Below are positions 11,166-30,616 of a DNA stretch of 38,736 nucleotides, piece by piece. Location of the stretch: positions 1 to 38,736 of the forward strand of contig JAWXAU010000070.1 in NCBI GenBank assembly GCA_034439655.1, in the 5' to 3' direction. Source of the stretch: Bacteroidota bacterium (GTDB lineage Bacteria > Bacteroidota > Bacteroidia > UKL13-3). A program made the position numbers and the translations under genes. Numbering within the stretch: position 1 is the stretch's first letter; each line of letters begins with the position of its first letter. Under the pieces are notes generated by a model. The model made no database searches. It saw nothing but the letters and a program-made list of their open reading frames with translations, and was not told where the DNA came from.

Positions 11166-11188
11166 AACCATTAATCATTAACAATTAT

Positions 11189-16659: not shown

Positions 16660-16712
16660 TGCAACAGCTCATTAACCCCGCCGCACCGGGAACCATTAAC
16701 CATTAACCATTA
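16660..16712. repeat. ATTAACC / GC-rich intergenic repeat
   Basis: The stretch contains CATTAACCCCGCCGCACCGG followed by three ATTAACC-type words. It closely matches the region at 11145-11180 upstream of upp. The tandem ATTAACC words supply the stop codon of the minus-strand CPBP gene that ends at 16696. Confidence 0.6.
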
Positions 16713-17640
16713 AAATCGCTCCCACTTCCATCAACCAAGCTATCCCCAGATGCACCATAATACCTCCATATATTGATTTTGTTTCCAAAGCAAGAACGCC
16801 TAATATTAATCCGCCGAAAAAGGAACTTGCTGTTTCGGCCATCGGTTTCCAAAAGTGAATTCCGACATAAAAACAAGCAATGGGTATAATACATTTATAA
16901 CCACAAATTCTTCCTAAAAGTAACATCATAAATCCACGAAAAAAAGATTCGATAGAAATAAAATCTATACCATAACATAATTCAAATAATGCAATTGGCT
17001 TCCAATTTTCGGCAGTTAAACTATGATAATGAAATATAGCATATACTTTTGGATATTGTGCCAAAAAATCTGTTTGGAACGATGCCCATACAATCAATGG
17101 AACCATCAGTAATAACAGCACCCAATAAGGTTTGGCTTCAAAGTTTTTGGTAGAGAATCCATAGAACGGCATTTGCTTTCGGTGCCAAAAAATCCATAGC
17201 ATAAAGACAGGAACAATAGTGAGCAAACACATCACCAAATTATCAGCACAATTATATGCTAATGATTTAAGTTCCTGATTGTCTTTTAGCCATTTTGAAA
17301 TTAAAACATTGTGATAGGTAAATGAAGAACGCAGCGAAAAAATTGCACAGCCAATGAGTATAATAGTCCATAGTTTTTTACTGTGTAGTTTGGGGTCTCG
17401 ATCGAATAAATATAAAATAATAAATGGATATAATATACTGGCAAAATAGAATACAAAGTATTTAAAATACGACTCTGTAAAACTATCTGAATCGTTGACC
17501 CATGCCTTGGGGAAACGGTATTCATAATTCAAATATATAAACAATGCATTTAGGCCAATTATAATAACCAAATAAGTCCTGTTTACTTCCTTGGTAAAAT
17601 AATTTTTGAGATACCCTATTATTTTTTTCACAGTGGGCAA
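16696..17640 (-). CDS. CPBP family intramembrane protease-like protein
   Basis: A 314-residue polytopic membrane protein with about eight hydrophobic segments (for example near 22-38, 58-80, 90-104, 132-152, 171-190, 236-262 and 270-288). The C-terminal half carries the CPBP (Abi, Rce1-like) motifs in degenerate form. FISIESFFRGF gives E231 and R235, with S where the family usually has a second Glu. FYVGIHFWKP gives H262, and GGIMVHLGIAWL gives H297. These may form a metalloprotease site. Substrates are unknown. The C-terminal codons and stop are supplied by the ATTAACC repeat, so the end may have been altered by repeat insertion. It is divergent from lptB. Confidence 0.82.
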   Translation of the reverse strand: MPTVKKIIGYLKNYFTKEVNRTYLVIIIGLNALFIYLNYEYRFPKAWVNDSDSFTESYFKYFVFYFASILYPFIILYLFDRDPKLHSKKLWTIILIGCAIFSLRSSFTYHNVLISKWLKDNQELKSLAYNCADNLVMCLLTIVPVFMLWIFWHRKQMPFYGFSTKNFEAKPYWVLLLLMVPLIVWASFQTDFLAQYPKVYAIFHYHSLTAENWKPIALFELCYGIDFISIESFFRGFMMLLLGRICGYKCIIPIACFYVGIHFWKPMAETASSFFGGLILGVLALETKSIYGGIMVHLGIAWLMEVGAILMVNG

Positions 17641-26515: not shown

Positions 26516-27523
26516 ATGGTTTCATTCGCATTACATGTTACCACCAAAGCCCAATATTGGATTCCTTCCAATTCGGTTACCACAGCCACACTCAGTCCTG
26601 TTAGTATTAGTATACCCACACCTAATACCAATACCACAAATCATTTCTTGATAAGAAGAAATTTACTAAATGTGATACAAAATCCACCACCAACCTATTA
26701 CACACAAAACTATTTAAGGATTGAAAATTATACGCCACCTATCTTAGGCTTTCCAGCAATTACTACTCCTATATTTACCATAAACGATGATGGATATATA
26801 GGGCTTGGCGTAAACGATCCAACAAGTCCTCTGCATGTCAGTATCCCCTTCGATTATAACTTTAAAAGTTTTCACTTTACAAATAATAGTAGGCCTTCAA
26901 ACATATTAATCATTGGCGGGCAAACCCCTCCTTATGATAGACAACTGTTCTATGTTAATAGGTTATTCCAAGGAAGCTATGGTAAGATACCTCAAACCGA
27001 TGACCAAGGAATATTTTGGAGCGATGGCAAAACAAAAGCTACCAATGTGAGTGAGAATGTATATGATGAAACCGGTGAAATAACAGGCACAAGAACAGTT
27101 ACCAACTACTATAATACCAGCTCGGGTTTTGTTATTGCACCTTGGTATAACCCCACAAATACGAGCGATTTTAGAGGACTGCGAATAGCTAATAATGGTT
27201 TTGTGAGCATTAACAGCTCTAATAATTTTGGTTATGCTTTGGCGGTTAATGGCACTATAGGTGCTAAAGAAATAGAGTTGGATATAGCTATTAATTGGCC
27301 CGATTATGTGTTTGATAGTTCTTATCAGCTATACGATATTGATTCTCTGCGACACTATATAAATGCTAACCACCATTTACCAGGAATTCCCCCCGCAAGT
27401 AAAATGCAAGATCAAAAAATGAATGTGGCAGAAATGAATATTGCCTTGCTCAAAAAAATAGAGGAAATGACTTTGTATATGATACAGCTTGAAGAAAGGA
27501 TTAAAAAAGTGGAAGGGAAATAA
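26516..27523 (+). CDS. Secreted tail-fibre-like protein with out-of-frame signal peptide
   Basis: The 335-residue open frame has a C-terminus typical of Bacteroidota tail-fibre or cell-surface proteins: NWPDYVFDSSYQL, HHLPGIPPASKMQ and ALLKKIEEMTLYMIQLEERI, the last forming a short coiled coil. The open frame starts at an internal ATG. Upstream, an ATG at 26493 begins MKKLFF and then runs into a stop in the neighbouring frame. One additional T in the run at 26508-26511 would join this to LLMVSFALHVTTKAQ, a normal signal peptide. So the sequence as given lacks an intact secretion signal. This could be a real frameshift or a sequencing error. Confidence 0.7.
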   Translation: MVSFALHVTTKAQYWIPSNSVTTATLSPVSISIPTPNTNTTNHFLIRRNLLNVIQNPPPTYYTQNYLRIENYTPPILGFPAITTPIFTINDDGYIGLGVNDPTSPLHVSIPFDYNFKSFHFTNNSRPSNILIIGGQTPPYDRQLFYVNRLFQGSYGKIPQTDDQGIFWSDGKTKATNVSENVYDETGEITGTRTVTNYYNTSSGFVIAPWYNPTNTSDFRGLRIANNGFVSINSSNNFGYALAVNGTIGAKEIELDIAINWPDYVFDSSYQLYDIDSLRHYINANHHLPGIPPASKMQDQKMNVAEMNIALLKKIEEMTLYMIQLEERIKKVEGK

Positions 27524-27526
27524 TAA

Positions 27527-28053
27527 ATGAGAACCTTAAATTTTTTATTAATCTGTATTGTCATATTTGCAAGCTCAATTTTGCATGCAAGAGATATACA
27601 TGGGTATATTTCTTTTGGGGGGAATTTAGGGTATAGAACAAAGGGGGCTATTACATTAATACTAATAATCAAAAAAAAGTTGGTTTTTACGATTTAAAAC
27701 TTGGTATTGCTTATAATCTAAAAAAGAATACATTTATTACTGGCATTAAAGCCTATAGGGATATTGATATGGAAACACCTAATATGCTTGGCCATGTTAA
27801 TCGACACGGATTATTTATAAAATGGAATTATAAAATAAAAAATCAATATTATATTGGTGCTGAATATTCTAGATTAATAGCAGACAAGCATAACACATTT
27901 ACAAACAACACAATCAATATTTATTCAATATGTGCTGGTAAAACATTGTTAAAGAACCGCATAGGTTTTGAGGTAAAATGTGATTATGTTTCAATAACGC
28001 CAAAATGGATGAGCCATTTCAATAATTTTATAATTTTATATGTTAAAATATAA
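27527..28053 (+). pseudogene. Frameshifted small secreted beta-barrel-like protein
   Basis: ATG at 27527, 3 bases after the previous stop, starts a signal peptide (MRTLNFLLICIVIFASSILH) and then GYISFGGNLGYRTKG, after which the frame closes. One extra G in the run at 27643-27647 would lead directly into KGGYYINTNNQKKVGFYDLK and on through the open frame that ends at 28053. The joined product would be about 175 residues with alternating strand patterns (YYIGAEYSRL, IGFEVKCDYV) that suggest a small outer-membrane barrel or secreted beta protein. No family was recognised. The sequence as shown encodes no complete product. Confidence 0.65.
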
Positions 28054-28072
28054 TATTATATTATATTATATT
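28053..28072 (+). repeat. Tandem ATATT x4 microsatellite inside a signal-peptide region
   Basis: Four perfect ATATT units run from 28053 to 28072, just after an ATG at 28040. With four units the ATG frame closes after about 18 codons. With five units (or two) it would continue into the secreted protein at 28128. Such a repeat could switch expression on and off by slippage. Confidence 0.75.
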
Positions 28073-28127
28073 ATTATTACTTCTAAGTTTTATTAAGTGC
28101 GGTGCATTTAATCGACCCAATGATTCT

Positions 28128-28637
28128 ATGAAAAATGTGATTTTAATTCAGCCTACTTTGAATTTTAAAAAAACTTATAGTGGTAATTATTATTTGGATT
28201 TACAATATATACGTTTCACAAAACGAAATATTGGTGGGTATGCAGGTGTTGGTTATGGATATTATAGTTCAATCGGCTATTATCAAAAGAAGCCTTACTT
28301 TGCTAATCGGTTAATTAATTATGAGGTGGGTGTAGCATATAAAGTTTGCATGGCTAAAAATTTATACAACATAACAACTTTGGGTTATTATCAATTGACC
28401 GACAATACTTTAATATATCAAATGGATTCTACTTTTAAAAAATTCACAGGAGTACAAATTGCTGATATTTTATTTGTTCCAATTAATAATCATTTTTACG
28501 CTACTATAAATATTGGTTATTCAATTTCTAAAATTATTTTTAACTTTACTGATATTAATAACTATAATAAAATATCAACCATAAAATACAATGCCAATAA
28601 AGTATCTTTCCAAATCGCTTTTGCTTATAAATTTTGA
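28128..28637 (+). CDS. Small secreted beta-rich protein, possibly phase variable
   Basis: The open frame from 28128 encodes 169 residues rich in Tyr and alternating strands (YAGVGYGYYSSIGYYQ, FYATINIGYSISKIIFN, and a terminal FQIAFAYKF). The terminal aromatic residue resembles outer-membrane barrels. It has no signal peptide from this ATG. Reading the same frame upstream gives LLLLLSFIKCGAFNRPNDS, a lipoprotein-like signal, but no start codon. The matching start is probably the ATG at 28040, which overlaps the previous coding end by 14 bases and lies out of frame by one base because of the ATATT tract. No known family was recognised. Confidence 0.65.
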   Translation: MKNVILIQPTLNFKKTYSGNYYLDLQYIRFTKRNIGGYAGVGYGYYSSIGYYQKKPYFANRLINYEVGVAYKVCMAKNLYNITTLGYYQLTDNTLIYQMDSTFKKFTGVQIADILFVPINNHFYATINIGYSISKIIFNFTDINNYNKISTIKYNANKVSFQIAFAYKF

Positions 28638-28641
28638 ATAT

Positions 28642-29646
28642 ATGAAAATTATTTACTTATCTATATTTTTTTTATGTGGCATTTGCAAAGGCATCGCACA
28701 AAATATGATAATTAATGGCGGATTTGAAGATGCTCAGAAATCTAGTTTTACTGACAATCCCAATGAGTTTCTGGATCCAAGTAATTGTAGTGGAAATGGT
28801 TGTAATTGTAGTGGCCATGTTGCTGAATGGGGATCATCGTATGGTTCACCAGATATAACTTATGGCTCACCTAATAGTGGCCAATATGTAACCAACCAAT
28901 GTGGCGTTAGTGTTATAAGTATATACTCTTTCGATTGTTGCCCCATACCACAACTAAGCACCGTTAATATTGAAATATGCAATAAAAGTTTTTATCAACT
29001 GGGCCCGCAGGCTTTTACTTTTCTTAGCACCTACGGTTATATATTTCAATGGACAGCCACAAACCCAACCGATTTAAATTATTTAAGCAGTACAACTATT
29101 ATAGACCCTTCAATTACATTAGACCCCAATAATCCATTACCTACCTTCCCAATGCATTTATATTTAACAGGTACCAATGCTTGCGGCGTTTCTTTTAGCC
29201 AGGAGTATATATTGGATGGCAATCCGCAACAACCCATCGTACATTATATATCACCTGGTTATTGTTGGAATGCATCAGTACAAGCTTATGTATCTTGCAA
29301 TCCATTTTATCACAGTTCAACACAAATACTCGAATTGCCTTATCAGCTTTCAGACCAAACCGCTCCTCCTTTAACTATAGAGTACAAACAGTTAGTAGTA
29401 GAAGTATATAATGGAGGAGTACTTTTAGGCAATCCTATAATATTTAACTATGATGATCCCACTATGATAAATCAATTAAATAATAATTTAACAGCATTGG
29501 CAAAAAACAATACTTACAAATTAAATACTCCAATAAACATAGATTGTACAAAATCTATTGGTGTAGTAATTTATTACAGGAGAGATTGCGATATTTTTCC
29601 TCTACTTGGATTTGATTATGGCAATACAACTTTATGCATTTACTAA
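28642..29646 (+). CDS. Secreted protein, function unknown
   Basis: A 334-residue protein. The start is placed at the ATG at 28642, 4 bases after the previous stop, because it begins a signal peptide (MKIIYLSIFFLCGICKGIAQ); an ATG at 28591 lies inside the previous gene. The mature N-terminus, NMIINGGFEDAQ, is a common opening in Bacteroidota secreted proteins with galactose-binding-like folds. A Cys-rich stretch follows (CSGNGCNCSGH). No sorting domain is visible at the C-terminus, so T9SS export is not supported. The next gene starts 1 base after the stop, so the two are co-transcribed. No function is proposed. Confidence 0.75.
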   Translation: MKIIYLSIFFLCGICKGIAQNMIINGGFEDAQKSSFTDNPNEFLDPSNCSGNGCNCSGHVAEWGSSYGSPDITYGSPNSGQYVTNQCGVSVISIYSFDCCPIPQLSTVNIEICNKSFYQLGPQAFTFLSTYGYIFQWTATNPTDLNYLSSTTIIDPSITLDPNNPLPTFPMHLYLTGTNACGVSFSQEYILDGNPQQPIVHYISPGYCWNASVQAYVSCNPFYHSSTQILELPYQLSDQTAPPLTIEYKQLVVEVYNGGVLLGNPIIFNYDDPTMINQLNNNLTALAKNNTYKLNTPINIDCTKSIGVVIYYRRDCDIFPLLGFDYGNTTLCIY

Positions 29647-29647
29647 T

Positions 29648-30616
29648 ATGAAGAAATTATATATTATATTACTTTTATTTACCAGCACAGCATTTTATAA
29701 ATGTTACGGACAAATAGACACTATACCCAATGGTGGCTTTGAGCACTGGGAAGGACAGCAGAATTGTCAATATTATATCCCCAAACCCTGGGAAAACTAT
29801 TGCACAGATTATACAGGATTTATATTTACACATTTACTTCCTCATTCCTTTGAGCCATATAAAGACACAGCTACTTTATATCTTTTTTCACCTAATGATA
29901 AATCTCCCAACTTTGTAGAACAAACTTTCATCATACATTCCCGTCCAAAGGCATTTAGTATGATTGCTGGCTATAACTCTGGTATTAAAATAGCTGGGTT
30001 CAATGTTGTGATATTGATGTTAAAAGGGAAAGATACAGTAGCATATAATAACGAAAGCTCTGACCCAAAATATTACCGTTATTTAGGAGATACAGTATTG
30101 CCATTTGACTTTATTTTCCCAATTAAATACTATAATAATAATATACCTGATTATTGTTATATTAGACTAAATTCTGTTTCTAGACAATATACAAACTTTA
30201 CTAAAGGCGGAGGTACCTTATACGCAGATAATGTAAAATTTCTTGATACTGTTATGGAAAAAGGCGTTTGGCATCCTGATACAACAACACATAATGATAC
30301 AACCACCCATACAGATACTACAAAACACACTTCTATATATTATACTGCCGCACCCCCGCCACAACTTACTGTATGGCCCAACCCATCAAGTGGCGAAGTG
30401 TCTTTTAGTTTCAAAGCAACAGGCAACGGGTTATATACTTTAACTATATATGATATCACAGGCCGTTTGGTTTCTACACCCATCAAACAAACCCTGCAAA
30501 CAGGCAGCGATACCAAAGCCAATTGGGACTGCCCCAACTGCAACAGCGGCATATATACTTATATATTGCAAAGCCCTAGTGGTGTGCAAGCGGGCAAGGT
30601 GGTTTTGGTGAAGTAG
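29648..30616 (+). CDS. T9SS-secreted protein, function unknown
   Basis: A 322-residue cargo of the type IX secretion system. The ATG at 29648 begins the signal peptide (MKKLYIILLLFTSTAFYKCY); the ATG at 29606 lies inside the previous gene. The mature part opens with IPNGGFEHWEG, related to the neighbour's NGGFED. A Thr/His/Asp-rich linker (DTTTHNDTTTHTDTTKHT) precedes a type A sorting domain: LTVWPNPSSGEVSFSF, LTIYDITGRLVSTPI, GIYTYILQS and the final KVVLVK. The middle domain resembles a PCMD- or galactose-binding-like region, with low certainty. Confidence 0.85.
   Translation: MKKLYIILLLFTSTAFYKCYGQIDTIPNGGFEHWEGQQNCQYYIPKPWENYCTDYTGFIFTHLLPHSFEPYKDTATLYLFSPNDKSPNFVEQTFIIHSRPKAFSMIAGYNSGIKIAGFNVVILMLKGKDTVAYNNESSDPKYYRYLGDTVLPFDFIFPIKYYNNNIPDYCYIRLNSVSRQYTNFTKGGGTLYADNVKFLDTVMEKGVWHPDTTTHNDTTTHTDTTKHTSIYYTAAPPPQLTVWPNPSSGEVSFSFKATGNGLYTLTIYDITGRLVSTPIKQTLQTGSDTKANWDCPNCNSGIYTYILQSPSGVQAGKVVLVK

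Follow-up and report, generated by a model that had tools for sequence, protein, structure and literature searches.

In Neisseria, the reading frame of the opa genes is set by CTCTT pentamers that lie within the leader-peptide codons (PMC3960869). A survey of Neisseria repeats set the minimum for pentamers at five units and scored opa loci carrying one to four repeats as non-variable (PMC5953494). Intergenic tandem arrays of heptamers are also known, such as the TAACTGA arrays of the Beggiatoaceae (PMC4679880). Multi-locus phase variation is known largely from pathogens and commensals, for which database bias is a possible reason (PMC11868660). Here, a locus resembling the opa genes is described in the window, the whole 38,736-nucleotide stretch of DNA that was analysed (Bacteroidota bacterium, assembly GCA_034439655.1, contig JAWXAU010000070.1, positions 1 to 38,736, forward strand).

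The locus, gene 2 (28040-28637, plus strand), encodes a small secreted protein that is OFF in the present assembly, the frames of its ATG and of its body being different. The sequence-only reading had placed the start at an ATG overlapping the previous coding end by 14 bases and followed by four ATATT units. Both statements were borne out by reading of the sequence: the overlap runs from the ATG at 28040-28042 through the upstream stop, TAA 28051-28053, and the four units at 28053-28072 are all perfect, within a period-5 run of 4.4 copies (28053-28074). The array lies between the start and the gene body, within the codons that specify the hydrophobic core of the signal peptide, and its unit is not a multiple of three. 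Translation from the ATG yields an 18-residue peptide (MLKYNIILYYIIITSKFY, 28040-28096, plus strand) that closes at TAA 28094-28096, as had been claimed. The leader LLLLLSFIKC and the 188-residue body are read in another frame, which stays open between 28047 and the stop at 28637. Simple arithmetic agrees with the original proposal that adding one unit, or removing two, would join the ATG frame to this leader and body. The body contains no stop codon and no second indel in its 188 codons, and the sole fault of gene 2 is at the array.

Production of gene 2 from another start, whether an ATA or ATT codon or the ATG at 28128, or through ribosomal frameshifting, would be compatible with a body frame that is open from 28047. 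However, this frame has an in-frame TAA at 28044-28046 and contains no ATG, GTG or TTG before 28128; initiation there would cost the whole of the remaining leader (LLLLLSFIKCGA..., 28071-28127, plus strand), which disfavours the downstream start that the earlier reading had named as a challenge to its own proposal. Folding of the RNA at the overlap of genes 1 and 2 detected nothing beyond shuffled sequences (z = -0.08), and so no stable structure that would support ribosomal frameshifting. The ortholog described below also uses the overlapping ATG, and production by these routes is extremely improbable. A frameshift that would fuse genes 1 and 2 was considered separately and rejected, as there is no fitting slip codon between TAA 28044 and TAA 28051. 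Since the ortholog starts with the same 14-nt overlap, ATG 28040 is most likely the true start of gene 2.

Among 97 relatives, a clear ortholog of gene 2 was found in one genome, the same-genus MAG RH-26jul17-255 (G002; contig CANJUD010000005.1), presumably of freshwater source, given the RH sample series to which it belongs. The G002 gene is intact, reads MLRYSTLIWILFFTFAKCEGG..., and has no ATATT repeat; its ATG overlaps the stop of the upstream gene by 14 nt (ATGTTAAGATATAG, versus ATGTTAAAATATAA in the window). The body of gene 2 is 41% identical to this ortholog, with identities of 62, 66 and 45% at codon positions 1, 2 and 3, respectively. An open body frame of 588 nt was obtained in 0 of 20,000 composition-matched random sequences. 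Because the body frame is open beyond chance and identity follows this codon-position pattern, the body of gene 2 was under protein constraint until recently. The claim that the downstream frame encodes a real protein was upheld by its conservation in G002. Searches for wider homologs returned just marginal matches in the class (E about 1e-3), no relatives in IMG/VR, and in genome_contigs nothing besides the G002 genome itself.

An alternating hydrophobic C-terminus with a terminal Phe is a known signal of outer-membrane barrels. The C-terminus of gene 2 (...KVSFQIAFAYKF; FQIAFAYKF) displays alternating hydrophobic residues and a terminal Phe, and that of the G002 ortholog (...KIYFQIGLSYSF) shows the same alternation and also ends in F. 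Judged by eye, gene 2 thus combines a signal peptide with a C-terminal beta-signal whose last residue is aromatic. These two features suggest that the gene 2 product is probably a small outer-membrane beta-barrel. AlphaFold2 modelling from a two-sequence alignment gave a pLDDT of 31, which does not confirm a barrel; neither gene 2 nor its ortholog matched a Pfam family, and no sequence homology to the Opa protein family was detected.

The ATATT array was found to be far from chance expectation. In dinucleotide shuffles of the window, 0.01 matches were expected even when two mismatches were allowed. The exact (ATATT)4 20-mer occurs at two sites in the whole 3.5-Mb genome to which the window belongs (G000) and is absent from the 63 other genomes of the family. 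Both sites start 6-10 nt past an ATG, within a signal peptide. ATATT alone was searched across the whole genome; the survey of pentamers in general was made on a 766-kb sample of it, in which no other pentamer reached four copies.

The translation of both arrays, ILYYII, would make a good core for a leader, and the genome is 37% GC, such that the arrays could be mere AT-rich codons of a hydrophobic leader (I, L and Y) with no tendency to slip. However, in simulations that drew on the codons used by leaders of this genome, a pentamer in four copies (a 20-nt run) was produced in 1 of 400,000 leaders, and scaling from 178 sampled leaders to the whole genome gave an expectation of a few thousandths of an array, versus the two seen. 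A further point against this explanation is the absence of (ATATT)4 from the 394 other genomes of the class (395 were searched, including the present genome). It is thus very improbable: AT-rich codon use alone does not account for the arrays, and slippage does. Because shuffles, genome searches and leader simulation all place the array far from chance, the ATATT tract most likely arose by slippage and switched gene 2 off. That slippage at the array put gene 2 out of frame is well supported.

The second (ATATT)4 site lies on the minus strand of another contig (G000:C127:8946-8965; L063 8944-8965), in the leader of a gene whose product carries a type IX secretion (T9SS) C-terminal domain. There the sequence ATGAAAAAA(ATATT)4ATTCTGC... 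is in frame and reads MKKILYYIILFCIPMQLMAQYDPSAG..., so that four units correspond to the ON frame at this gene, and to the OFF frame at gene 2. Relatives of the C127 gene were found in 40 of 40 genomes searched, many of the lower-scoring matches spanning the C-terminal domain only. Two same-genus orthologs, 66% identical, both lack the repeat, which argues for a lineage-specific origin of the array at this gene; by the same kind of comparison, the ATATT arrays appear to have arisen within the present lineage at both genes. Copying of one array to the other locus was considered and rejected, there being no similarity beyond the repeat and the next three bases. A cobalamin riboswitch lies about 3 kb upstream of the C127 gene on the same strand (L063 12080-12289).

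Other repeats were observed in the genus. Heptamers, among them AACCATT, CTACTGA and AAATCGT, commonly form arrays of 3-6 copies, which are almost always intergenic; two are in the window (16691-16713 and 11166-11187), and many are in L017, L038, L043 and L063. An (ATTTATT)6.4 array at L067 5875-5919 (G000:C24) stops roughly 30 nt short of the ATG of a small secreted gene, the first of a similar pair, where it could change promoter or leader spacing. The far longest dinucleotide run in the sample, (AG)16.5, follows (TA)7 at L070 2543-2588 (G000:C27), apparently between genes. Possible contingency tracts, in genomes of 37% GC, are a C10 run at a contig end (L118 5341-5350, G000:C55) and G9/C9 runs at L037 5655 and L044 886 (G002).

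Gene 2 is part of an operon of orphan secreted proteins on the plus strand that collects frame breaks in both species. It is preceded by gene 0 (26516-27523, 335 aa) and gene 1 (27527-28053, a secreted protein) and followed by gene 3 (28642-29646, a secreted protein with its frame intact) and gene 4 (29648-30616), which encodes a type IX secretion-tagged protein (Por_Secre_tail). Gene 1 changes frame at a GGGGG run (27643-27647), a break absent from the sequence-only reading; in G002 its ortholog is unbroken and encodes a secreted protein of 177 aa, with 50% identity across the aligned part. The GGGGG run is short and is not a typical contingency tract. Gene 1 also holds a GGGGGG run at 27617-27622. 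In G002 it is gene 0 that is frame-broken, at a run of A that is one base too long, with about 75 internal residues of the window gene missing (L016 minus strand, about 5700; G002:C5 about 117,700). No homology was found between genes 1 and 2.

Because gene 1 is frame-broken as well, decay of the operon is a serious rival to a switch. Under this explanation, slippage at the array would have knocked out gene 2 as one event in the breakdown of a fast-evolving operon, and gene 2 would be a young pseudogene. Elsewhere, strict criteria gave 2 frameshift candidates among 334 aligned genes in sampled contigs. A looser count gave 6-7 per about 300 genes, which is an upper bound, since most of these candidates are confined to the outermost 15-30 residues at either end and many probably reflect where an alignment ends. 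Both counts are incomplete, having missed the known breaks in gene 1 of the window and gene 0 of G002; they can therefore overlook short terminal segments. Set beside this background of about 2-7 candidates per about 300-330 genes, the breaks in genes 1 and 0 favour decay, as do the restriction of clear gene 2 orthologs to one other genome, which marks the gene as dispensable, and the expectation that four ATATT copies should slip rarely. In contrast, a body that has kept all its codons free of stops and of a second indel, with its only fault at a repeat, counts against decay, as does the second ATATT array, which has been kept in frame in a conserved gene. The pattern of frame breaks is about equally compatible with a decaying operon and with one made up of contingency genes, and we regard decay as a real possibility that falls somewhat short of probable.

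The frame breaks might also be errors of sequencing or assembly in the ATATT count and in the GGGGG run, with genes 1 and 2 intact in reality. The genome is a 205-contig draft, and repeats and homopolymers are typical points of assembly failure. However, at 20 nt the array would fit within a read of any common length, and frameshifts are rare in the sampled contigs, as the strict count indicates. Error is thus an improbable source of the two breaks.

In the mechanism proposed for gene 2, replication slippage would have expanded codons of the signal-peptide core into an ATATT microsatellite, and each 5-bp unit gained or lost would shift the gene 2 body into another frame relative to the ATG. 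The unit count would thereby determine whether the cell produces and exports the protein. With four units, ribosomes starting at 28040 would make the 18-residue peptide, the OFF state, and the like array in the C127 leader would represent the ON state. The position of the array, the paired ON and OFF leaders and the rarity of the repeat together make reversible use as a switch plausible, with the case for and against it about evenly balanced. Four full units (4.4 copies) fall below the cut-off of at least five for pentamers, which counts against a switch. The comparison draws on one assembly of the species, in which ON and OFF are seen at two different genes. Thus, of the original proposal of a phase-variable secreted gene, the start, the conserved body and the non-random leader array stood and were joined by a second site in the ON frame, while reversible switching is at most plausible. 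Collectively, these findings suggest, at roughly even confidence, that gene 2 is a low-rate translational ON/OFF contingency locus in which unit count sets export, and from which the cell may derive some benefit by switching. We advance more tentatively, as a reading we hold somewhat doubtful, a two-gene phasome in which slippage of leader ATATT arrays switches two genes independently, one for an orphan protein of the outer membrane and one, in the neighbourhood of a cobalamin riboswitch, for a protein exported through T9SS.

Compared with known systems, the layout of gene 2 resembles the opa switch in anatomy without gene 2 being a relative of Opa. In both cases the unit is 5 bp, the array lies in signal-peptide codons just past the ATG, the pentamers encode part of the signal peptide, and the unit count decides the frame; the gene 2 product, like Opa, is probably a small outer-membrane protein. 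In contrast to opa, the gene 2 unit is AT-only and there is no sequence relation; its four copies are fewer than those of variable opa alleles and are known from one assembly; its host belongs to another phylum and has another lifestyle; and two unrelated genes are targets here, one of them apparently T9SS-exported. Phase variation in Bacteroides, through invertible promoters and invertase-controlled surface genes, likewise concerns surface or secreted products in Bacteroidota. However, recombinases invert DNA in those systems, whereas the candidate mechanism here is slipped-strand mispairing in coding sequence. The heptamer arrays of the Beggiatoaceae are also tandem arrays of a short unit, and the present genus likewise has many heptamer arrays several units long, but such arrays lie almost entirely between genes and leave frames unaffected, whereas the ATATT arrays are inside leaders.

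If unit number varies naturally, gene 2 would provide repeat-driven switching of an exported protein in a free-living, probably freshwater bacterium, through an independently derived leader-codon pentamer whose length changes spare the mature protein. If the phasome is true, it would place a mechanism based on coding repeats in a phylum whose known switches mainly invert DNA, and would have arisen by convergence with Neisseria opa. The kind of switch is already known; coding pentamers in the leaders of environmental Bacteroidota would be unusual, because inversion is the mechanism of the Bacteroides switches that a recent review cites (PMC11868660).
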